DNA of 64,000 bases from the NCBI RefSeq assembly GCF_009900745.1, contig NZ_WXVU01000004.1:203267-267266 (forward strand), written 5' to 3'. A program made the position numbers and the translations under genes. Positions 27,989 through 44,000 of the stretch are shown here, piece by piece. The notes beneath the pieces were generated by a model, which saw only the letters and a program-made list of their open reading frames with translations, searched no databases and was not told where the DNA came from. Each line of letters starts with the position of its first letter. Position 1 is the stretch's first letter. The DNA comes from Chryseobacterium sp. c4a (GTDB taxonomy: Bacteria; Bacteroidota; Bacteroidia; Flavobacteriales; Weeksellaceae).

Positions 27989-28006
27989 ATAGGATTTTTA
28001 CGGGTG

Positions 28007-28014
28007 CAAAAATA
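28007..28014 (-). promoter_or_regulatory. -7 element of typA
   Basis: TATTTTTG on the minus strand, 18 nt before the ATG. The plus-strand region 28020-28329 beyond it contains no gene I can support. Confidence 0.5.
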
Positions 28015-28329
28015 GTGATTTTAAATGAATTAATTAAAATCTTTATGCAATATTTAACAATTTCATAATGAGAAATTTAGATAAATTCCTTTTACAATCC
28101 CTAAAAAACATACGGTATCAGAGGTTCAGTTATTTCATTGTTTTCACTTTTATTCTAATCAATTTCCTGAGGTATATTGACCCTTTTATTCAAAACATCC
28201 TATTGGCAGGTCTTCGAATGTCTCTTATCATAAGATTGGGATTCAGGAATAAAAAGAGTGATTTTGTATTCTTGAGCTGAATGATAAATGTGGGAAAACA
28301 CTTTTTAGCGCTCAATGAATTCATATATA

Positions 28330-28581
28330 TCAATGTCTTATCAATCGATATAGCAACACAACATCAATTAAAACGACAATAAAAAATTTCACAAGAAAAG
28401 ATTTTTTGGAAACTTTATGATGAAAAATGATCATTCCTGAAGCTGCACCAATAATTCCAATTAATGAAAGCCCTAAAAGAGCATTCTCGGAAATCCGCCA
28501 TTGGTGTTTTTTGGCTTGCCATTTATCAAACCCAAAGACCCCGAATGTAATAAGGTTAGCGATCAGTAGAAAAGGAATCAT
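28330..28581 (-). CDS. DUF1294 domain membrane protein
   Basis: An 83-residue protein with three membrane spans. The motif GFDKWQAKKHQWRISENALL followed by GIIGAASGMIIFHHKV is the DUF1294 signature. Function is unknown. A -7 element TATTTTTG lies at 28601-28608, 19 nt upstream of the ATG. Confidence 0.85.
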   Translation of the reverse strand: MIPFLLIANLITFGVFGFDKWQAKKHQWRISENALLGLSLIGIIGAASGMIIFHHKVSKKSFLVKFFIVVLIDVVLLYRLIRH

Positions 28582-28694
28582 TTTTTAAATTAATTTGCTG
28601 CAAAAATAAAGTTTAATTTATAGATTACAGGAATATTCAAGCTTTAATACCCAGGTTTGCAAAATATTTATAGCAGCATCAGGATAAGATTTTT

Positions 28695-28702
28695 TAAATT
28701 TG
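28695..28702 (+). promoter_or_regulatory. -7 element of the 28725 gene
   Basis: TAAATTTG lies 22 nt before the ATG and is followed by an A-rich leader, typical of flavobacterial genes. Confidence 0.45.
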
Positions 28703-28724
28703 CCACCCATAAAAAAATAAATAA

Positions 28725-29081
<357 letters not shown>

Positions 29082-29142
29082 TACCATTTCATTAATGATC
29101 ATTGCATAAAAGTCTGAAAATAAGCTCTCATTTCTATAAAAA

Positions 29143-29178
29143 AGCCTGGAATCTTGAAGTTCCAGGCTCTATTTTTTT
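29143..29178. terminator. Bidirectional terminator between convergent genes
   Basis: AGCCTGGAA pairs with TTCCAGGCT, with A/T runs on both sides. It serves the plus-strand 28725 gene and the minus-strand PfpI-like gene. Confidence 0.8.
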
Positions 29179-29185
29179 ATAAAAG

Positions 29186-29734
29186 CTATAGCGCATGTCC
29201 CACGTGCTTTCCTTCTTTAAATTCTTCTACCATTTTAGCATTAAATGCAGGGAGATCCTTTGGAGTTCTGCTGGTTACAAGTCCATTGTCCACTACAACT
29301 TCACGATCTTCCCAATGAGCTCCGGCATTGATCAGATCTTTACTGATTGATTTTACGGAAGTCATATTTCTTCCATTAACCACTTTAGCGTTGATGAGGA
29401 TCTGTGGCCCATGGCAAATGGCTGCAACAGGCTTATTTTGAATAAAAAAGTCCCTTACAAATGCCAAAGCCTGCCCGTTTGTCCTTAATTGATCAGGATT
29501 TATCACTCCGCCAGGTAAAACCAAAGCATCATAATCAGACGCGTTTACTTCATCAAGTGTTTTATCTACAGCATAATCTTTTCCCCAGTTTCTCTCTGCC
29601 CATGATTTGATGGTTCCTTTTTCAGGGCTTACAACATGTGCCGTCCATCCCTGCTGCTCTAAATATTCTTTAGGTGATTGAAGTTCACTTTCTTCAAAAC
29701 CATGAGTTGCCAGAATTGCAATTTTTTTTGACAT
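29186..29734 (-). CDS. DJ-1/PfpI family protein (type 1 glutamine amidotransferase-like)
   Basis: About 182 residues from MSKKIAILATHGFEE. The nucleophile elbow AAICHGPQ has C107 followed by H108, and E14 or E15 occupies the conserved acidic position, as in PfpI/YhbO proteins. These act as stress-linked chaperones or glyoxalase/deglycase-like enzymes. The ten extra upstream codons are unlikely to be used. Confidence 0.9.
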   Translation of the reverse strand: MSKKIAILATHGFEESELQSPKEYLEQQGWTAHVVSPEKGTIKSWAERNWGKDYAVDKTLDEVNASDYDALVLPGGVINPDQLRTNGQALAFVRDFFIQNKPVAAICHGPQILINAKVVNGRNMTSVKSISKDLINAGAHWEDREVVVDNGLVTSRTPKDLPAFNAKMVEEFKEGKHVGHAL

Positions 29735-29883
29735 GATATGATGATTTTGGGTGTTATCTTTCATTGAGTGAAAAAATAATGCCGTTGGGCTGTTATCAAG
29801 TTCTAAAAAAAGTTAAAGATCCTTTATCAAAGTAAAAAAGGATTCCACATCAAAAAAAGAAATGCTACCCTTCCCTATACCAC

Positions 29884-29911
29884 AAAAAAAGCTGTCTTCA
29901 TGAAGACAGCT
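29884..29911 (-). terminator. YceI gene terminator
   Basis: A perfect 10-bp stem, AGCTGTCTTC and GAAGACAGCT, with a 2-nt centre and a T-run of seven on the minus strand. Confidence 0.85.
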
Positions 29912-29936
29912 CTTGATTTATATAAAGTGTAATACC

Positions 29937-30611
29937 TTATTTTTTTGCTTTTACATCAATAGCGATTTCGATGTCTTTGCTAATCATCCATTCAGCAGGA
30001 TCAGCTTCTGAAGTCCCAAATTTGATTCCCCAATCTGTTCTGTTTACTGTAAATTTAGCCTGAATAGCTGCAGTATTATCTACGACATCTACTTTAGCAG
30101 GGAAAGTAACATTCATCGTTTTCCCCATTAATGTAAGGTTTCCGCTTACTGTTTTATTAGCTCCTGCTACTGCATCTTTTGGTGCCTCTTTCAGATCTGC
30201 TACACTTGTAATTTTGAAGTCTGAAGTAGGGTTTTTCTCTACGTCAAAGAAATCAGGGTTTTTAAGGTGAGCTTCAAGATCTGCAGGTTTTTTATCTTTT
30301 TCAGTTACTGAAGCAGGGTCAACTTTAATAGAAGTCATATCAATATTGAAGTTTCCAGCTACTACTTGTCCACCTTCAATGTTTAGATCTCCAGATTTTA
30401 CAGTAAGCGTTCCCCAACGAGGAGCAAAACCTCCTTTGTGGAAAGCTTTCCAGTTAACTACAGAAGCAGCTGCATCTACTGTTAATGCTTCTCCTTTACC
30501 TTCAGCCACTGTTTGCTCAGTAGCCACTGCTGTATCTGTTTTTTCTTTATTAGTACATGATGCTGCCAGTAATCCTACTGCTACTAATGCAATTACGCTA
30601 ATTTTTTTCAT
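29937..30611 (-). CDS. YceI family lipoprotein
   Basis: A 224-residue protein that starts MKKISVIALVAVGLLAASC, a lipoprotein signal with C19. The YceI lipocalin-like domain follows: VNWKAFHKGGFAPRWGTL, FNIDMTSIKVDPASV, then a C-terminal FTVNRTDWGIKFGTSE. YceI proteins bind isoprenoid-like lipids in the periplasm. The -7 element TATTTTTG is at 30651-30658. Confidence 0.92.
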   Translation of the reverse strand: MKKISVIALVAVGLLAASCTNKEKTDTAVATEQTVAEGKGEALTVDAAASVVNWKAFHKGGFAPRWGTLTVKSGDLNIEGGQVVAGNFNIDMTSIKVDPASVTEKDKKPADLEAHLKNPDFFDVEKNPTSDFKITSVADLKEAPKDAVAGANKTVSGNLTLMGKTMNVTFPAKVDVVDNTAAIQAKFTVNRTDWGIKFGTSEADPAEWMISKDIEIAIDVKAKK

Positions 30612-30650
30612 ATTATTGAACTGTTTAAAAAAGTTTATTGTTTTCGGATA

Positions 30651-30658
30651 CAAAAATA
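30651..30658 (-). promoter_or_regulatory. -7 element of the YceI gene
   Basis: TATTTTTG on the minus strand, 39 nt before the ATG at 30611. Between here and the CRISPR array there is only about 100 bp without a gene. Confidence 0.5.
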
Positions 30659-30780
30659 GAAAAACCTTATGGGTCTTCTCTTATCATACATCAAGAAATG
30701 TAAATTTTGCTACCCGTGTTAGGAATTGTAACATGGGAAGCATTAAATGAGAGGTGGAAATATTTTGTATTACTGCCTAA

Positions 30781-33700
30781 TTTATTATCTTCGTGATTAG
30801 TCACAGCCATGTAAGTTTCACAAAACATAATCCTACGTTGTGAATTGCTTTCAAAAATTATTATCTTCGTGATTAGTCACAGCTGGTTCCTTGTACCAGG
30901 CGGATCAATTCTAGTTGTGAATTGCTTTCAAAAATTATTATCTTCGTGATTAGTCACAGCGAGACTAAAAAACAGATTTAAGAACCGGTTGTTGTGAATT
31001 GCTTTCAAAAATTATTATCTTCGTGATTAGTCACAGCCATGTCATCATAGATCTTTCTTTGTGCTGTGTTGTGAATTGCTTTCAAAAATTATTATCTTCG
31101 TGATTAGTCACAGCAATATGATCATATCTTCATTTTGAATTATGGTTGTGAATTGCTTTCAAAAATTATTATCTTCGTGATTAGTCACAGCAAAGTCACC
31201 TTCAGCAATTTTCCCTACCGGGTTGTGAATTGCTTTCAAAAATTATTATCTTCGTGATTAGTCACAGCCTTCTTTGTAATCTGAGCTGTTTCGTCAATGT
31301 TGTGAATTGCTTTCAAAAATTATTATCTTCGTGATTAGTCACAGCTTCCCAGTAGTTTATACCTGCTAACGGCTGGTTGTGAATTGCTTTCAAAAATTAT
31401 TATCTTCGTGATTAGTCACAGCTTTGATCTTTCATGTCCATGTCCTTTACCTGTTGTGAATTGCTTTCAAAAATTATTATCTTCGTGATTAGTCACAGCG
31501 GCAGCTACATCAAAGTCCACTACAGTGGCGTTGTGAATTGCTTTCAAAAATTATTATCTTCGTGATTAGTCACAGCAGTGAACTCACGGTGATCATTATG
31601 CTTACTGTTGTGAATTGCTTTCAAAAATTATTATCTTCGTGATTAGTCACAGCTTATCTGGTATTAAGCCGGACTAATTCAACGTTGTGAATTGCTTTCA
31701 AAAATTATTATCTTCGTGATTAGTCACAGCAAGAATATTCTGTAGATGGTATTAACGAGCGTTGTGAATTGCTTTCAAAAATTATTATCTTCGTGATTAG
31801 TCACAGCAATTCCAGTCTGGTTCTGAAGCTCTCTTCAGTTGTGAATTGCTTTCAAAAATTATTATCTTCGTGATTAGTCACAGCAAGCTCCTATTCTAAA
31901 CGAATGCTGCGATTGTTGTGAATTGCTTTCAAAAATTATTATCTTCGTGATTAGTCACAGCCTTAAAAATGGAGGGATGAGCTCTACAGCAGTTGTGAAT
32001 TGCTTTCAAAAATTATTATCTTCGTGATTAGTCACAGCATTAATAATATCTTTTCTTTCAACTTCATAGTTGTGAATTGCTTTCAAAAATTATTATCTTC
32101 GTGATTAGTCACAGCCAAAAACGAAAAGGGCTTAACAAACACTGAGTTGTGAATTGCTTTCAAAAATTATTATCTTCGTGATTAGTCACAGCTATACTTT
32201 TTAAGATCCTCTAAAAGACCTTGTTGTGAATTGCTTTCAAAAATTATTATCTTCGTGATTAGTCACAGCGGCAATTGTTGAGTTAGATCTATTAGTTAAG
32301 TTGTGAATTGCTTTCAAAAATTATTATCTTCGTGATTAGTCACAGCAAGAGTATTCAGTAGATGGTATAAATGAATGTTGTGAATTGCTTTCAAAAATTA
32401 TTATCTTCGTGATTAGTCACAGCAATATTACCTGATAACATTAGAGGCTTCGAGTTGTGAATTGCTTTCAAAAATTATTATCTTCGTGATTAGTCACAGC
32501 ATCTGCTGTTGTATTAATATTTCTAGCCTCGTTGTGAATTGCTTTCAAAAATTATTATCTTCGTGATTAGTCACAGCCTGTGACTTCGTCTCCATAGTGA
32601 ACAATGCGTTGTGAATTGCTTTCAAAAATTATTATCTTCGTGATTAGTCACAGCCTTGGCGATTAACAGGAGATGAAGAACCTAGTTGTGAATTGCTTTC
32701 AAAAATTATTATCTTCGTGATTAGTCACAGCCTGTGACTTCGTCTCCATAGTGAACAATGCGTTGTGAATTGCTTTCAAAAATTATTATCTTCGTGATTA
32801 GTCACAGCTTTTATTTTATCAGAAATAGCCTTTAGACGGTTGTGAATTGCTTTCAAAAATTATTATCTTCGTGATTAGTCACAGCAATAGGCTTGTTCTT
32901 CAGAATTAATAAACGGTTGTGAATTGCTTTCAAAAATTATTATCTTCGTGATTAGTCACAGCTGAAGCAGGTGTCTGGGTTTGGCTCGGAGTGTTGTGAA
33001 TTGCTTTCAAAAATTATTATCTTCGTGATTAGTCACAGCGTTAAGCCTTTCATATTCTAGCATTAAACCGTTGTGAATTGCTTTCAAAAATTATTATCTT
33101 CGTGATTAGTCACAGCCATAAATATTACCTACCCATCCAGTATTATGTTGTGAATTGCTTTCAAAAATTATTATCTTCGTGATTAGTCACAGCTAACCAA
33201 CTTTCATCAGTTCTGTATTTATAGTTGTGAATTGCTTTCAAAAATTATTATCTTCGTGATTAGTCACAGCTGATGTTTAAAAGTGAATTCACAGGCTTTT
33301 GTTGTGAATTGCTTTCAAAAATTATTATCTTCGTGATTAGTCACAGCGGAAAAAAGAAACATAACCAATAACCGGCGGTTGTGAATTGCTTTCAAAAATT
33401 ATTATCTTCGTGATTAGTCACAGCGAAAGCAGTACATTTTAAGCCTGAATTAGAGTTGTGAATTGCTTTCAAAAATTATTATCTTCGTGATTAGTCACAG
33501 CTACGGCCCGCTTTTCCCAGGCGTTGTAACAGTTGTGAATTGCTTTCAAAAATTATTATCTTCGTGATTAGTCACAGCTTGAAGGAATTCTATATAACGT
33601 ATCCTGTAGTTGTGAATTGCTTTCAAAAATTATTATCTTCGTGATTAGTCACAGCCAAAGCAACGTTTGTCCCCTTTGCCACATTGTTGTGAATTGCTTT

Positions 33701-35580
33701 CAAAAATTATTATCTTCGTGATTAGTCACAGCTCATTCCAGGATGATATAAAGAACGAAAGCGTTGTGAATTGCTTTCAAAAATTATTATCTTCGTGATT
33801 AGTCACAGCATTAAAAAAATTAAGTCCGTGCATCTTGTAGTTGTGAATTGCTTTCAAAAATTATTATCTTCGTGATTAGTCACAGCCATCTCGCCAAAAA
33901 CCAATCGACTCATTAAGTTGTGAATTGCTTTCAAAAATTATTATCTTCGTGATTAGTCACAGCCAAATTCCACTTTAGGCTTTTTATTTCCTTGTTGTGA
34001 ATTGCTTTCAAAAATTATTATCTTCGTGATTAGTCACAGCTATCCAGAGGTTTCATTGTAGGATGCTCTGGTTGTGAATTGCTTTCAAAAATTATTATCT
34101 TCGTGATTAGTCACAGCTCTCTTGAATTTTATCCGATATCATGGCCAGTTGTGAATTGCTTTCAAAAATTATTATCTTCGTGATTAGTCACAGCACATGA
34201 AACTGTATGAATATCGTTTTCGCTGTTGTGAATTGCTTTCAAAAATTATTATCTTCGTGATTAGTCACAGCTCTGATTCCTTTTTGTCTGCAGTATTCCT
34301 TGTTGTGAATTGCTTTCAAAAATTATTATCTTCGTGATTAGTCACAGCAAAGAAATCCTGGACTTCTTTTCCTGGATCGTTGTGAATTGCTTTCAAAAAT
34401 TATTATCTTCGTGATTAGTCACAGCTGAAGCTGAAAGAATAAATGAATCAAACAGGTTGTGAATTGCTTTCAAAAATTATTATCTTCGTGATTAGTCACA
34501 GCAAAGACGACTGATATACGCTTTCAGACATTGTTGTGAATTGCTTTCAAAAATTATTATCTTCGTGATTAGTCACAGCTGATGGATCTGTTGGAATAGC
34601 AATTCAGCAGTTGTGAATTGCTTTCAAAAATTATTATCTTCGTGATTAGTCACAGCGTTGCTCTGGGTGTGGACGAGCTGTCCGCTGTTGTGAATTGCTT
34701 TCAAAAATTATTATCTTCGTGATTAGTCACAGCTTCCTCTTCAACGGGGGAAAGTGTTACAGAGTTGTGAATTGCTTTCAAAAATTATTATCTTCGTGAT
34801 TAGTCACAGCTAATCTACATAAATTAACTCAAAATGTACCGTTGTGAATTGCTTTCAAAAATTATTATCTTCGTGATTAGTCACAGCGAATTATCAATTG
34901 GCGAGAGAATTATACGGGTTGTGAATTGCTTTCAAAAATTATTATCTTCGTGATTAGTCACAGCATGGAAAGGAGCAACATCTGCCGGTTTAAAGTTGTG
35001 AATTGCTTTCAAAAATTATTATCTTCGTGATTAGTCACAGCAAGAGATAAGGTGATTATCAGAGACGAACAGTTGTGAATTGCTTTCAAAAATTATTATC
35101 TTCGTGATTAGTCACAGCAATACCTTCACAGACAATTGGCTTATATCAGTTGTGAATTGCTTTCAAAAATTATTATCTTCGTGATTAGTCACAGCGGTTT
35201 AATTGCTTTATCTCTATCATCTACGGTTGTGAATTGCTTTCAAAAATTATTATCTTCGTGATTAGTCACAGCTTGGTCGTATCATTGGCCTTTATAGGTC
35301 TGGTTGTGAATTGCTTTCAAAAATTATTATCTTCGTGATTAGTCACAGCGACGGAATGTTTAGGCAAAGACGCTACTAAGTTGTGAATTGCTTTCAAAAA
35401 TTATTATCTTCGTGATTAGTCACAGCTTCCGGGTTCAATTCAATAAGCCCCTTTGTGTTGTGAATTGCTTTCAAAAATTATTATCTTCGTGATTAGTCAC
35501 AGCAGTATTGATTATGGCCCAGCAGCCACACTAGTTGTGAATTGCTTTCAAAAATTATTATCTTCGTGATTAGTCACAGC
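30781..35580 (+). CRISPR. Type II-C CRISPR array, 62 spacers
   Basis: Sixty-two identical 47-nt repeats run from 30837 to 35580 with a constant period of 77 bp (30-nt spacers). One degenerate repeat ends at 30807 and keeps only its 3' half; the first spacer is 29 nt. The repeat begins GTTGTGAATTGCTTTC and ends GATTAGTCACAGC. The tracrRNA anti-repeat pairs with the plus-strand repeat, so crRNAs are transcribed toward cas2. Each repeat contains TTG, 21 bases, then TATCTTCG, near the Bacteroidetes promoter consensus. One spacer is present twice (32577 and 32731); spacers at 31731 and 32347 are synonymous variants. Confidence 0.99.
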
Positions 35581-35583
35581 CTC

Positions 35584-35625
35584 AAAAAACAATCCACTGA
35601 AAATCAGTAGATTGTTTTTGTTTTT
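35584..35625. terminator. Bidirectional terminator between the CRISPR array and cas2
   Basis: CAATC-ACTGA pairs with TCAGT-GATTG around a short A loop (35590-35614). Six A on the left and a T-rich run on the right let it end both the array transcript and the minus-strand cas transcript. Confidence 0.8.
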
Positions 35626-35637
35626 AGGATTTAAATT

Positions 35638-36866
<1,229 letters not shown>

Positions 36867-36871
36867 AGTTA

Positions 36872-39800
36872 TTATTCTCCTATTTTGGTAATTTCTCCTA
36901 AATGATTCAATCTGACTTTTATTGGATTTAAAGAAAATAAAGAGCCTAAACTTCTAATATTATAAAGTCTTTTGCTTTCTTTAGCTCCATCAGTTTTCTT
37001 TAAATCAGAATTTTTAGTTTCTAAATGATGCCTGAACCAATAATTATTTTCAGAAATACTCCATACCAAATACAAGTATTTACTCAATAAAGATTTATCA
37101 TTATTTTTTATTGCTTCATCAAATTCATCTTGTGATAAACCCAGAATAAACATTTCATTTTGCTGCATACTGAACTTTAAATTGAGTTTATCGGCTGGTA
37201 ATTTATTCAAAAATGATCCTGGAAGTTCTTTATCTAATAATTGGCTCCAAACATCTGATGAATTTCCAATAACAGCAGAAATATTATATTTTTTTCTCTC
37301 TACAGCGTGCCAGAATGTACAACTGTGCTGAACAAGCTTATTGTCTTTATCCTCATAAATGGCGATATGATGATTATTTCCTGTAAGAACAAAGCCTATA
37401 TCTTTACCATCTTTGTCTTTCTTAATTGTCTGTAAATTATTAGCATCGGGGCGGGCAAACAAACGAACTGTTATAATCGGAATTTGTTTTTCTTCATTAA
37501 ACCAAAGGGTATCCTTGAAAGCTTCTTTTTCTTTGTTTCCAAATTGAGCAAGTCTTTCTTTTACCAAAAATTTTACTCTTTCATCAACAATATCATCGGC
37601 TTGACTTGCTTTTAAATTTTGTAATTTATATTTCAATACCGTTGCATCATTGTAACAAGATGCTTTTTCTAGAATTTCAGATTTTTCTTCGTTTAAAAAG
37701 ATTGGATTTTTCTTTAATGTTGACAAAGCCTTTTTAGAATTATTTTCATTTTCTGAAAGCCTTGTTTCAACAAGATTTTTAATCCCCGGATTTACAATTT
37801 TATCTGAGTTTTCAAATAAATATTTTAAAGGTTTATCATTCTCAATTACTTTTATTTTCCCATAAACAGATTGTTCATGTAAAGCTCCTCTTGGAACAAT
37901 CACACCTGTCGCTTTATTTTTTCCTGTCGCTTTAAATTTGGTTATGGTTGCTACTTTTTTACCCGCTTTAAAAGAAATTAAAACCCTGTCTGCTTCTTGC
38001 ATCACTTCTTGTGTACTAAAAGGTTTCTGAGTTTTTAGATATTTTTCTAAAAGTGTGGTCTTTTCATTAAATTCTATTTTAGCTTCCTCAACTTCTTTTA
38101 CCATTAAATCTTTTGTTTCACTCGAATTCAAAGTATTTATCCTATGAATAAAACTTTGTCTTGTACAGGCGATTACCAAAGCATCAATCGCGTGATGACG
38201 GTGATCATCTCTTTTTGTCCAGTTTTCGATTTCTTCTTTTTGATGTTTTCTTTTTCCGTGTTCGCTTGTCCACTCTTTGGTGACGGTTTGTCCTAATTCT
38301 TTGTATTTAGGCATTTGAAGATTCATTAAAACATCATCCCAACCCCATAAATTACGGAGTTTTGCAGTCACTCCACCTTCTGTTGTTGTTACATTATTGC
38401 ATATTTTCTGTAAAATATCCCTTGATTTGCGGGAAATATATTGAGTATCTCTCAATTGCCTGTCGATGAAATTTTCCCAAAGTTTTTTATCCGTTTCCGT
38501 TTCTTTTCCAAGTTTCTTTCTTTCAAGATATTCTTTATGTGAAACTTTCAGCCTTTGCATTTTATTGTAAGAGATAATTCCTCTCTTGAACCAGTCATCT
38601 ATCCGTTCTGAATATACCCTAACCTGTTCATCGCCTTTTGTGGCAATGTAATCGTACGCAGTTTGATTCGTTTTTGTCGAGTTACACTTTCGGTGAACCA
38701 AAACTTTGTTGGTCTGAGAGTCGTCAAACAATAAAGCTTTCGGTACAATATGGTCAACATCATAAGCATCTCCACTTAAAGCTTCTGTTAAATTGAAGGT
38801 TTCTCCACAATAAATACATTGATTATTGACGTGAGCATCTTTCAGATTTTTACTAAGTGATGGAAATATGAATTTATATTTTTGAATATATCGCTTGGTT
38901 ACCGGCAGTTCCAATTCTGCTAATCTTTTTCCGATTTCTTCATTCAATTTTTTATTTTTAGAATTTTGTAAATCGGTCTCGTTTCGCTCGTCTTTACTTT
39001 GTTTAAGCTCACGGGCAAGTTCAACTCTAATTTCAGATGGTTTTCCGTATTGCTCAAGAATTGCGTTAACCACATTAATCATCTGGTTCAGAATTTTCTC
39101 AACAATAGGTTGTCTCAAACTATTTTTAGGAAGAAGTTCCAATCGGTCTAAAGTAATTTGTTGTTCTTTTTCTTCTTTTGTCAGAGAATTAGAATGATTA
39201 TAACCCGCTAAACTACAGGATTGAGAATAATCATAGCCTTCCATCAGAAAAGGAAGAATTTTTCTCATTGATTTATTCGATTTATTTCCGAAAGCCTGCT
39301 TATTAAAATCTATACCAGATAACTTTTCGGCAATGTCTTCATCAAAACCAAACCTTTTAATCAAAGCATTTTTACATTCATCTAAATCTTTCAGAGAATA
39401 AATGGTATGCCACAGTTGATACAACGGTTCTCTTTCCAATGATGCATCAAGTTCAAGACCTGCTCTTTCTTCAAGAATTTCACCTGTTTTCTTATCTACT
39501 AATATGGCAGTATGATTTGAAGTAATGATAGATACATCAAAATTCAAAAGTTCATTATAGCCTAAAACACTATGAAGAGCTGCATATGTTTCATTTCCTT
39601 TAATGCCTTTCAGGATTTGCTTGTTCACATATACATCTTCTCTTTTTAATTCTAAAATTTCGAGAAGTTTAGTAAAGCTTAAACTTTCATTTTTAAATAA
39701 ATAATCTGCTAAAATTTCTTTCTCCTTTAAATCCGGAATTTTTTCACCCCATTTATATTTGCTTCCTTCTGGATTTTTTATTTTTAGAGTAATCGTATTA

Positions 39801-40678
39801 ACAACTTCCCAGATTCGGCAAAGCTGAAACAATGGAGATGTTTTAGGAGCAACTTTTGGCCCGACAAATACCACTTTATTTTTGTTTTTTTCCTTATCAA
39901 AAACAGTTTTCTCAAAGCCTTCAAATTCACAGATACTCACTAACCCTTTTTGAGATTTCAATTTCCTTTGAAAATAAATGATTTCATTTCTTAATTGATG
40001 AACCACTTTATCTGTAAGAAAATCGTGTTTGTCTTTTTGAGCATTAATAATAGTATCAAACTCTTCTATATAAGCTTCTCTTGGATAAACTTCTTCTTTG
40101 ATTCTGAAATACTGCTGATTATTTTTGTCTGAAAATGCGTTAGAAAGTCCTTCATAAAAATACTGCCCAATCGTCTGATTTCTGTCTTTTAACTGAGCAT
40201 AACGTCCTTTTACCGCCTGCACGTAATCTGTATCTTTTTTATCAGAATTAGCCTCACTTCTGGCAGACTTATAACCTCTTTTCTGATTAAGCATATAGAG
40301 AATACGTCCTAATTGTTCTGCAGAAATATATTCATTAGAATTAGCAGAATCACTTCTCAGTTTCCATAAATCAAGCATTGGAAGTTTTAACAATTCTTCT
40401 GATGGGAAAATATTGTATTTTTTTAGAATTTTCTTTAAATCATTTTTCTTTAATTGTTTTCTATCATAACCTTTTCGCTGAGTACGGCTTATTGTTCTAC
40501 TTTGATTTTTTGTGATTGACAAACCTCTTTGAAATTCTTCTTTATCACTTGTTGACAAAGGGATTATTCTGGAGCCCATTGCAATAATGCGAACAGGAAT
40601 ATTATTTTCACTAACCTCTACCAATGCCCAACCAATGGAATTGGTTCCCAAATCTAATCCAAGTATATTTTTAGTCAT
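36872..40678 (-). CDS. cas9: CRISPR-associated endonuclease Cas9 (type II-C)
   Basis: A 1268-residue RNA-guided nuclease, in the larger range for II-C proteins. RuvC-I is LGLDLGTNSIGWALVE with the catalytic Asp about residue 9; the Arg-rich bridge helix RTISRTQRKGYDRKQLKK follows. RuvC-II is IRVELAREL (E about 553), HNH is YDVDHIVPKALLFDDSQTNK (H about 643), framed by CIYCGETF and a later Cys that may bind zinc, and RuvC-III is HRHHAIDALVIAC (D about 832). No catalytic residue is missing. A second ATG codon at 40681 could add one Met. The C-terminal PAM-reading domain is intact, but the PAM cannot be read here. Confidence 0.98.
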   Translation of the reverse strand: MTKNILGLDLGTNSIGWALVEVSENNIPVRIIAMGSRIIPLSTSDKEEFQRGLSITKNQSRTISRTQRKGYDRKQLKKNDLKKILKKYNIFPSEELLKLPMLDLWKLRSDSANSNEYISAEQLGRILYMLNQKRGYKSARSEANSDKKDTDYVQAVKGRYAQLKDRNQTIGQYFYEGLSNAFSDKNNQQYFRIKEEVYPREAYIEEFDTIINAQKDKHDFLTDKVVHQLRNEIIYFQRKLKSQKGLVSICEFEGFEKTVFDKEKNKNKVVFVGPKVAPKTSPLFQLCRIWEVVNTITLKIKNPEGSKYKWGEKIPDLKEKEILADYLFKNESLSFTKLLEILELKREDVYVNKQILKGIKGNETYAALHSVLGYNELLNFDVSIITSNHTAILVDKKTGEILEERAGLELDASLEREPLYQLWHTIYSLKDLDECKNALIKRFGFDEDIAEKLSGIDFNKQAFGNKSNKSMRKILPFLMEGYDYSQSCSLAGYNHSNSLTKEEKEQQITLDRLELLPKNSLRQPIVEKILNQMINVVNAILEQYGKPSEIRVELARELKQSKDERNETDLQNSKNKKLNEEIGKRLAELELPVTKRYIQKYKFIFPSLSKNLKDAHVNNQCIYCGETFNLTEALSGDAYDVDHIVPKALLFDDSQTNKVLVHRKCNSTKTNQTAYDYIATKGDEQVRVYSERIDDWFKRGIISYNKMQRLKVSHKEYLERKKLGKETETDKKLWENFIDRQLRDTQYISRKSRDILQKICNNVTTTEGGVTAKLRNLWGWDDVLMNLQMPKYKELGQTVTKEWTSEHGKRKHQKEEIENWTKRDDHRHHAIDALVIACTRQSFIHRINTLNSSETKDLMVKEVEEAKIEFNEKTTLLEKYLKTQKPFSTQEVMQEADRVLISFKAGKKVATITKFKATGKNKATGVIVPRGALHEQSVYGKIKVIENDKPLKYLFENSDKIVNPGIKNLVETRLSENENNSKKALSTLKKNPIFLNEEKSEILEKASCYNDATVLKYKLQNLKASQADDIVDERVKFLVKERLAQFGNKEKEAFKDTLWFNEEKQIPIITVRLFARPDANNLQTIKKDKDGKDIGFVLTGNNHHIAIYEDKDNKLVQHSCTFWHAVERKKYNISAVIGNSSDVWSQLLDKELPGSFLNKLPADKLNLKFSMQQNEMFILGLSQDEFDEAIKNNDKSLLSKYLYLVWSISENNYWFRHHLETKNSDLKKTDGAKESKRLYNIRSLGSLFSLNPIKVRLNHLGEITKIGE

Positions 40679-40769
40679 CATTATTAATTTTTATATACCT
40701 TATAAAAATAGAAATAAAAAAAATATTTAAAATGAGGATTCCCGTAATCACCTAAAAGATTTTTTCTCC

Positions 40770-40777
40770 TATATTTG
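40770..40777 (+). promoter_or_regulatory. tracrRNA promoter -7 element
   Basis: TATATTTG is a perfect TAnnTTTG match. It ends 3 nt before the anti-repeat, so the transcript should start at about 40782-40786. No good -33 was seen. Confidence 0.65.
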
Positions 40778-40780
40778 TCT

Positions 40781-41606
<826 letters not shown>

Positions 41607-41632
41607 ATTATAATTCAAAGGAAAAATTATTC

Positions 41633-41657
41633 AAGGCGGGGGCAACTCGCCTTTTTT
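41633..41657 (+). terminator. O-methyltransferase terminator
   Basis: AAGGCG and CGCCTT stem followed by TTTTTT. Confidence 0.75.
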
Positions 41658-41696
41658 CGTTTTAAAACCCTATTTTAGCTATTCGAAAACAGAACA

Positions 41697-43820
41697 ATGA
41701 CGACCGTAGAATTTATACAGAAGCAGCTCGATATTTCTGAGAAGAGCATCAACAATACTTTACAATTATTAGCCGAAGACTGTACCATTCCTTTTATTTC
41801 CCGTTACCGTAAGGATAAAACCGGAAACCTGGATGAAATACAGATTGAGCAGATCGCCAAGATCAGCAAACAGTTTGATGAGATTGTTAAAAGAAAGGAA
41901 TCTATTTTAAAATCTATAGAAGAACAGGATGCTTTAACGCCTGAACTGAGACAAAGAATTGAAGAAAGCTTTGATATGCAGGAGTTGGAGGACTTATATC
42001 TTCCTTTTAAAAAACGTAAGAAGACTAAAGCAGATGCGGCCAAGGAAAAAGGATTAGAACCTTTAGCCAAAATCATAATGAGCCAGAAAAACAATGATGT
42101 ACAATTTTTGGCCTCCAAATATCTGAATAACGATGTTACATCAGAGGAAGAAGCTCTTCAGGGAGCAAGAGACATCATGGCGGAATGGATTAATGAAAAT
42201 ATGTATGTCCGTAAGAACCTTCGTCGTTTATTCCAGCGTAAAGCAGTAGTGACTTCTAAAGTGGTGAAGGCTAAAAAGGAGGAAGAAGATGCTCAAAAGT
42301 TTTCTCAGTATTTTGAATGGGAGGAAAACCTCAGCAGAACTCCTTCTCACAGGCTTTTGGCAATGCTGAGAGCAGAAGCTGAAGGCTTTGTAAAAACCAA
42401 TGTAGGAATTGACAAAGAAGAGGCGATTGATTTTATTGAAAAAGCCATCATCAAATCTAATAATGAAAGTTCTGATCAGATTGCTTTAGCGATTAAAGAC
42501 AGTTATAAAAGACTTCTGGAGCCTGCTATTTCCAATGAAGCATTGCAGGAGGCTAAGGAAAAAGCAGATAAAAAAGCGATTGAGATTTTCTCTGAGAATC
42601 TGAGTCAATTACTTTTGGCTCCGCCATTGGGAGAAAAAAGAATTCTGGCTATTGATCCTGGATACAGAAGCGGCTGTAAAGTGGTTTGTTTAGATGAAAA
42701 AGGAGATTTGCTGCATAATGAAACCCTCTACCCTCACGCTCCACAGAATGAATCGGGAATGGCGATGAAAAAGATCCGTTCTATGGTAAATGCTTATAAT
42801 ATTGAAGCCATTTCTATCGGAAACGGAACAGCAAGCCGTGAAACGGAGTTTTTCATCAAGAAAATTGCTTTTGATAAACCTTTACAGGTATTTGTGGTTT
42901 CGGAAGCAGGTGCCTCGGTGTATTCTGCCAGCAAAATTGCAAGGGATGAGTTTCCAATCTATGATGTAACGGTACGTGGTGCGGTTTCTATTGGAAGAAG
43001 ACTTTCTGATCCGTTGGCGGAATTGGTAAAAATCGATCCAAAATCTATTGGAGTCGGACAATATCAGCATGATGTGGATCAGACTCAATTGAAAAATGAG
43101 TTGGATTCTACCGTGATGAAGTGTGTAAACTCTGTAGGAATTAACCTGAACACAGCCAGCAAATCTTTATTAAGCTATGTTTCCGGAATTGGAGAAAAAA
43201 TGGCTGAAAACATTGTGAATTACAGGGCTGAAAACGGTGCTTTTGAGGATAGAAAACAGCTTAAAAAAGTTCCAAGACTTGGCGAAAAAGCATTTCAACA
43301 GGCAGCAGCATTTGTAAAGATTACCAATTCAAAAAATCCACTGGACAATTCTGCGGTACATCCTGAAGCCTATAAAACTGTAGAAAAAATGGCTAAAGAT
43401 TTAGGGATCAAAACCGATGAACTGATTGCCAACAAGGAAAAAATTGCTCAGATAAAACCGGAAAACTATATCACCGAAGATATCGGAATTCTGGGAATTA
43501 AAGATATTTTAAAGGAACTTGAAAAACCTGGTTTGGATCCGAGGAAAGCGGCCAAAGTATTTGAGTTCGATCCTAGTGTAAAAAGCATTAAGGATTTAAA
43601 AACAGGCATGATCCTTCCGGGAATCGTTAACAATATTACAGCTTTCGGATGTTTTGTAGATCTTGGAATTAAAGAAAGCGGATTGGTTCACATTTCACAG
43701 CTTAAAGACGGCTTTGTTTCGGATGTGAATGAAGTAGTAAAATTGCATCAGCATGTAAGAGTAAAGGTAACGGAAGTGAATGAGGCAAGGAAAAGAGTGC
43801 AACTGAGTATGATTTTATAA
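41697..43820 (+). CDS. Tex family RNA-binding transcription accessory protein
   Basis: A 707-residue protein with the full Tex layout: N-terminal helical region, YqgF/RNase H-like domain (ILAIDPGYRSGCKVVCLD near residue 317), helix-hairpin-helix domain (GIGEKMAENIVNYRAENG) and a C-terminal S1 RNA-binding domain (PGIVNNITAFGCFVDLG ... ESGLVHISQL). It probably acts on RNA or the transcription complex in the cytosol. Confidence 0.95.
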   Translation: MTTVEFIQKQLDISEKSINNTLQLLAEDCTIPFISRYRKDKTGNLDEIQIEQIAKISKQFDEIVKRKESILKSIEEQDALTPELRQRIEESFDMQELEDLYLPFKKRKKTKADAAKEKGLEPLAKIIMSQKNNDVQFLASKYLNNDVTSEEEALQGARDIMAEWINENMYVRKNLRRLFQRKAVVTSKVVKAKKEEEDAQKFSQYFEWEENLSRTPSHRLLAMLRAEAEGFVKTNVGIDKEEAIDFIEKAIIKSNNESSDQIALAIKDSYKRLLEPAISNEALQEAKEKADKKAIEIFSENLSQLLLAPPLGEKRILAIDPGYRSGCKVVCLDEKGDLLHNETLYPHAPQNESGMAMKKIRSMVNAYNIEAISIGNGTASRETEFFIKKIAFDKPLQVFVVSEAGASVYSASKIARDEFPIYDVTVRGAVSIGRRLSDPLAELVKIDPKSIGVGQYQHDVDQTQLKNELDSTVMKCVNSVGINLNTASKSLLSYVSGIGEKMAENIVNYRAENGAFEDRKQLKKVPRLGEKAFQQAAAFVKITNSKNPLDNSAVHPEAYKTVEKMAKDLGIKTDELIANKEKIAQIKPENYITEDIGILGIKDILKELEKPGLDPRKAAKVFEFDPSVKSIKDLKTGMILPGIVNNITAFGCFVDLGIKESGLVHISQLKDGFVSDVNEVVKLHQHVRVKVTEVNEARKRVQLSMIL

Positions 43821-43835
43821 GGCTGTTTCATTTTC

Positions 43836-43947
43836 TAACCATTAAGATGTGGTAAGGGATTTAGAATAACAAGTTAAGCTTCGCTTTAAGATTTTTTGCT
43901 TACGTTTTGTTAATCAAACTTAACTTCTAAACTCACCTTAATGGTTA
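43836..43947. repeat. Nested palindromic intergenic element
   Basis: Outer arms TAACCATTAAGATG (43836-43849) and CACCTTAATGGTTA (43934-43947) pair with one mismatch; inner arms AAGTTAAG (43871-43878) and CTTAACTT (43919-43926) pair perfectly. The 112-bp element has no coding content and looks like a small REP- or MITE-type repeat. Confidence 0.6.
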
Positions 43948-44000
43948 CATAATTACTTCATAAAATTTGAAAAAAACAATTATTCATTATCATTAAATAA

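Follow-up and report, generated by a model that had tools for sequence, protein, structure and literature searches.

Sampling of one mobile element by several spacers of a CRISPR system has been described for Legionella pneumophila, where several spacers are directed against LME-1, an element of about 30 kb (PMC5071653). There, two spacer pairs lie on overlapping regions of LME-1, changes in PAM or seed weakened the older spacers, and priming after escape is offered as one interpretation, for CRISPR types other than the one analyzed here (PMC5071653). This is the nearest published description that we found. Its pairs are described there as overlapping, not as base-exact and silent, whereas those reported below belong to type II-C, lie in register and occur in several species. 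Within the Flavobacteriia, the type II-C locus C1 of Flavobacterium columnare has repeats of 36 bp and the PAM NNNNNTAAA, as compared to 47 bp and an inferred PAM NNTTNC here; furthermore, in F. columnare the phage protospacer changes of highest specificity, four in number, were non-synonymous, whereas the differences between the two spacers examined below are silent. The titles and beginnings of abstracts found by searches of open PMC text contained no announcement of base-exact silent spacers at one site.

A stretch of 64,000 nucleotides from Chryseobacterium sp. c4a (contig NZ_WXVU01000004.1, positions 203,267 to 267,266), referred to as the window, was analyzed. The CRISPR array extends from 30837 to 35580 on the plus strand and consists of 62 complete, identical 47-bp repeats and 62 spacers, all of 30 bp except for the first one (29 bp). 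A degenerate partial repeat at 30779-30807 (plus strand) was taken as the old, leader-distal end of the array. Between the array and cas2, a hairpin followed by a T-rich run (35585-35619, plus strand; -14.6 kcal/mol, z -3.46) is likely to terminate array transcription. The genes cas2 (35638-35976; TIGR01573, PF09827) and type II cas1 (35973-36866; TIGR03639, PF01867) adjoin cas9 (36872-40681), all on the minus strand; cas9 codes for a protein of 1269 aa carrying HNH and RuvC domains (TIGR01865, E = 1.3e-144; HNH_4, RuvC_III). A probable tracrRNA is predicted on the plus strand at 40781-40867, comprising an anti-repeat (40781-40806) and a terminator-like GC hairpin with a T-run (40838-40867); in the region 28000-44000, no Rfam family matched at gathering scores. 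The check for additional adaptation genes (csn2, cas4) covered the interval from cas9 to the array, which held no other ORF of at least 100 aa, and the neighboring ORF at 40941-41606, which showed weak methyltransferase matches below the cut-offs. By its gene content and repeat type, the locus is assigned to type II-C. Spacers 24 (32578-32607) and 26 (32732-32761), separated by one other spacer, are identical, and the searches made revealed no target for them.

Spacers 13 (31731-31760) and 21 (32347-32376), both on the plus strand, match at 24 of 30 bases in register, and the identical pair 24/26 is the only closer one in the array. A sequence-only reading of the window had claimed that both encode the same peptide with synonymous changes only, and its coordinates, sequences and frame proved exact: translation from the third base onward yields EYSVDGINE for both. 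In the frame (E)EYSVDGINE(L), none of the six differences changes an amino acid. Five are third-position changes, and the sixth, C or T at the last base, is likewise consistent with a silent change, since the homologous gene continues with a Leu codon. Shuffling the 61 full-length spacers 300 times never gave a pair with more than 20 matches in 30, and of 200,000 trials with six random substitutions placed in spacer 13, only 83 left a reading frame in which every change was silent. Four of the six differences are located within 8 bases of the PAM (positions 1, 2, 5 and 8 from it). In II-C arrays, transcription is directed toward the leader and the variable end (PMC8092290). Given this polarity and the position of the degenerate repeat, at the low-coordinate end, spacer 13 appears to be older than spacer 21.

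A codon-degenerate peptide search of 173 genomes of the genus located EYSVDGINE, outside the host array, at exactly one place, namely in parA of the Chryseobacterium joostei plasmid NZ_CP033927.1. The homologous site lies on the predicted strand and in the predicted frame, exactly midway between the two spacers and in the same register for both: it differs from spacer 13 at positions 11, 29 and 30 and from spacer 21 at positions 5, 23 and 26, hence by three silent mismatches in each case. The claim that the host had sampled the same protein segment twice is thus supported, and both spacers point to one gene instead of to unrelated genes or opposite frames. That both protospacers share one homologous site, with the same register and inferred PAM, was demonstrated on homologues, as searches of phage, plasmid, IMG/VR and genome collections did not recover the exact donors. 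The variant EYSIDGINE (Ile for Val) occurs in parA of two other genomes among the 173, again with the strand and frame predicted. Other candidates were rejected: in nine genomes matching the peptide pattern at two mismatches (EYSVDGINW in five, EYSVVGIND, EYAVDGIND and, twice, EYSVDGIKD), and in five Chitinophaga genomes with EYTVDGINE, the sites belong to other, unrelated-looking proteins.

The plasmid NZ_CP033927.1 (30,209 bp) carries genes for a relaxase, MobC, Rep, TraG and a coupling protein, and PLSDB types it as non-mobilizable despite these conjugation genes. The target gene is annotated as encoding a ParA family protein with Pfam matches to AAA_31 and CbiA; the likeness to ParA-type plasmid partition ATPases concerns the target gene only and lies outside the immune system. 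The host genome contains no ParA match at E 1e-40. Spacer 12 (31654-31683, plus strand) matches the same plasmid at 13873-13902 with three mismatches, on the minus strand in a hypothetical gene with the PAM GGTTAC. With 1656 NNTTNC sites on both strands of the plasmid, a random coincidence of a pair among three spacers on it would be expected at about 3/1656 = 0.002, an optimistic figure since more of the 62 spacers may target the plasmid family unseen. The sequence-only reading had proposed phages or other elements as source; the searches favor the elements, in the form of a plasmid parA. A search with the joined spacers yielded the C. joostei plasmid as sole match in the plasmid collection and only three chance-level records (E 8) in the phage collection. 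Single-spacer phage searches gave partial matches only, the best being to a Vibrio phage (21 of 30 bases, E 0.01) and, for spacer 21, one at E 0.6. Phage ParA matches all remained below 60% identity, and nothing was confirmed in IMG/VR for the peptide pattern or the ParA protein. As far as the searches reach, a plasmid gene and not a phage gene is supported as the source. C. joostei itself (G059) possesses, besides this plasmid (L034), an array of the same repeat type with 25 repeats (L162); a scan allowing up to four mismatches placed none of the 24 spacers extracted from this array on the plasmid of the same species.

Additional observations concern phages and prophages. Spacers 39-43 and 46 match nearby genes of a prophage-like element found in three genomes (L071, G054:C106; L072, G044:C1; L078, G069:C1); the L071 element encodes a head protease, a primase, an amidoligase and a DNA methyltransferase, and in several of these matches the peptide is kept and the DNA differs. 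Furthermore, the Riemerella phages RAP44 (L218, NC_019490.1, about 31649-31745) and CRP19 (L219, OR089151.1) carry small CRISPR arrays with a related repeat, with one and three spacers, respectively, and a terminator-like hairpin adjoining a dinD gene. The 2.2 kb fetched around these arrays contained no annotated cas gene, and other phage records match this array stretch by BLAST.

The PAM of the window array was inferred as NNTTNC, or loosely NNYTNC, 3' of the protospacer. It was derived from 17 target sites, with spacers 13 and 21 counted once and five sites at 4-5 mismatches. T was present at +3 in 13, T at +4 in 14 and C at +6 in 12 of them; NNTTNC was found at 10 and NNYTNC at 11 of the 17 sites, and six misfit YTNC. 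Because the common motif lies 3' of the protospacers in plus orientation, the plus strand was taken as the guide strand. A PAM tally from all arrays (1730 distinct spacers against the fetched loci) was contaminated by array-bearing loci and discarded, and only the rows of the window array were used; in this contaminated scan, spacers of other arrays often had other, A-rich flanks.

At the parA site, positions +3 to +5 form a Leu codon and +6 is the first base of a Pro codon. Leu-Pro forces YTN followed by C whatever the codons, and does not force TTNC. Leu-Leu-Pro was present in 11 of 16 ParA loci, two of which (L022 and L035) have an identical site sequence, and YTNC was found in all 11 (TTNC in four, CTNC in seven). 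Four of the 16 loci lack both Leu-Pro at the site and YTNC, and one is truncated. CTNC as a PAM is supported by one window target (spacer 41). Five of the 63 YTNC sites of C. joostei parA were kept in all nine homologues of 52-81% identity; the 13/21 site is among these five and ranks second among them by protein conservation.

The 33-base repeat core was detected in 69 of 173 genomes, host included. Besides the host, 57 genomes contained at least 7 repeats; 55 were fetched (G072 and G081 were omitted, and G015 is represented by one of two contigs), so that window and genomes gave 56 arrays with 1749 spacers. A single copy of the core occurs in G002, G023, G046, G099, G100, G151, G156, G158 and G171, and two copies in G008; such copies may be either remnants or repeats carried by mobile elements. 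Within arrays, 48 pairs showed at least 20 matches, 19 of them being identical, and 25 pairs in the 56 arrays showed at least two differences. Amino-acid conservation was significant at p < 0.05 in 11 and at p < 0.01 in 9 of these 25 pairs, with a combined p of 1e-14 in which same-site pairs are not independent; the other 14 pairs gave p ≥ 0.05, several of them because they differ at few bases. Altogether, repeated in-register sampling with differences, many of them silent, was seen at 18 sites, distributed over 10 arrays. Array L155 (genome G040, G040:C32) supplies four of the 18; one of its sites was sampled four times, by spacers 5, 27, 37 and 39, all readable as TAIALTKAK. The 173 genomes contained no full-length target of these four spacers, and a comparison of 24 of the 152 spacers of L155 and L156 with the same genomes yielded, besides their own arrays, two partial matches of 20-21 bases; conceivably, the repeated sites of these two arrays are due to a fixed codon phase.

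In-register and off-register pairs stood at 18:4 and 15:6 (power-matched 18-base windows), and reversed controls gave 0 or 1 each. PAM density predicts a ratio of about 1:1.35, as calculated from the plus-strand sites of one plasmid and the window PAM; the PAMs of other arrays may differ. With the fourfold L155 site collapsed, the first of these counts fell to 14 sites against 4, or 13 without the duplicated block of L189. Fewer off-register overlaps were present than would be expected from the density of PAMs. Between L155 and L156, which belong to different species, four homologous pairs were in register and one was off register; these shared sites imply that a preference for certain sites can arise without memory in the array itself.

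Differences between spacers of one site were concentrated at the PAM side. Of the 85 differences at the 18 sites of the 10 arrays, 45 fell into the 10 PAM-side bases, where 29.4 were expected (p = 1e-4), and no pair lacked a PAM-side difference, where 3.5 were expected (p = 0.0095). For this count one pair per site was used, leaving out L189 13/15 (segment duplication), L156 25/46 (no frame support) and L150 16/21 (shifted by one base at the PAM side); the 10-base seed length was chosen after the differences had been seen, so that the p-values are not pre-set. Without the window pair the count was 41 of 79 (p = 6e-4), and a chained version gave 50 of 99 (p = 0.0014). With all within-array pairs matching at least at 22 of 29 bases, a set that contains L189 and, from L155, several pairs sharing a site, 48 of 85 differences were on the PAM side (29.3 expected) and none of 20 pairs lacked a seed difference (4.6 expected). 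Pairs between arrays served as a natural control. The three that passed the strict threshold had 6 of 17 differences on the PAM side (5.9 expected), one of the three having none there, and a fourth, weaker pair raised the count to 12 of 25. With only three to four such pairs, the control cannot demonstrate a filter by older spacers, and the PAM-side excess may be independent of the array's own memory.

How did two silent variants of one site enter the same array? Chance resemblance of two unrelated spacers is practically negligible, as shuffling never produced more than 20 matches, against 24 observed, and both spacers fit one gene in one register. Duplicated spacers do occur in arrays of the genus, as shown by the identical within-array pairs and by L189 13/15, located in a duplicated block with one change; for spacers 13 and 21, an internal duplication with later mutation of either copy is highly improbable, because all 62 repeats are identical, random substitutions hardly ever give an all-silent outcome, and a third variant outside the array, on the plasmid, uses the same frame. 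The sequence-only reading had offered two origins, diverged elements or silent escape with renewed sampling, and the former is better supported. Escape would mean that the plasmid recognized by spacer 13 acquired silent seed mutations, returned and was recaptured at the same site. The position of differences near the PAM, both in the 13/21 pair and across the 18 sites, fits such a course, as do L165 12/22 and L177 19/23, whose sole differences occupy base 1 or 2 counted from the PAM. For spacers 13 and 21 we nevertheless regard it as unlikely: six silent differences and a natural plasmid midway, three silent changes from either spacer, exceed what a one-step escape needs and resemble the divergence of lineages.

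A possible, though doubtful, account of the pair is that acquisition simply prefers certain PAM sites and samples related elements there regardless of memory. The in-register pairs shared by L155 and L156 speak for it, as does the scarcity of off-register overlaps, seen within arrays too. Taken alone, it leaves the PAM-side excess within arrays unexplained, although the few between-array pairs are not clearly different in this respect. The same evidence bears on a priming-type dependence on the older spacer: the excess is found within arrays, yet arrays of different species share same-site pairs as well, and the numbers between arrays are small. Very probably, spacers 13 and 21 are independent captures from related but diverged elements, made at a site with a conserved PAM and probably subject to a filter by the older spacer. 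The locked PAM together with site preference likely explains the common register, and the seed mismatch likely explains the second guide.

Such independent captures could have proceeded as follows. Two related, C. joostei-like plasmids would have been captured separately, the first by spacer 13 and the second, later, by spacer 21. Their DNA would have drifted under the constraint of the ParA protein, leaving silent differences only. The PAM is placed on conserved Leu-Pro codons (TTR CC or CTN CC), and the motif would thus largely outlast silent drift; sites with a locked PAM would remain available in variants and appear to be preferred for capture, which would lead to the same base-exact site. 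Cas9 guides usually tolerate mismatches least beside the PAM. An older spacer would clear elements with a matching seed, and an element with an unmatched seed would be captured again; the older spacer probably filters targets that it still matches, provided that this Cas9 has the usual seed sensitivity. With four differences among the 8 bases next to the PAM, spacer 13 was probably unable to stop the second plasmid, which would have made a second guide worth keeping.

Extended to the genus, we tentatively suggest that II-C arrays of Chryseobacterium keep sets of near-synonymous guides, silent seed drift or escape being answered by recapture at the same site where the PAM is fixed by amino acids. 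If so, an array would accumulate several codon variants of one protein segment from essential genes of mobile elements, and a curiosity of a single array would become a countable signal. Same-site spacer pairs may preserve a trace of elements that got past an older guide and of the positions at which it was mismatched, which would make the seed sensitivity of Cas9 and the drift of its targets readable from genome sequences only. One could then ask whether re-sampling in type II systems is driven by memory or by a favored site; furthermore, codon-locked PAM sites in essential plasmid genes would be durable targets.
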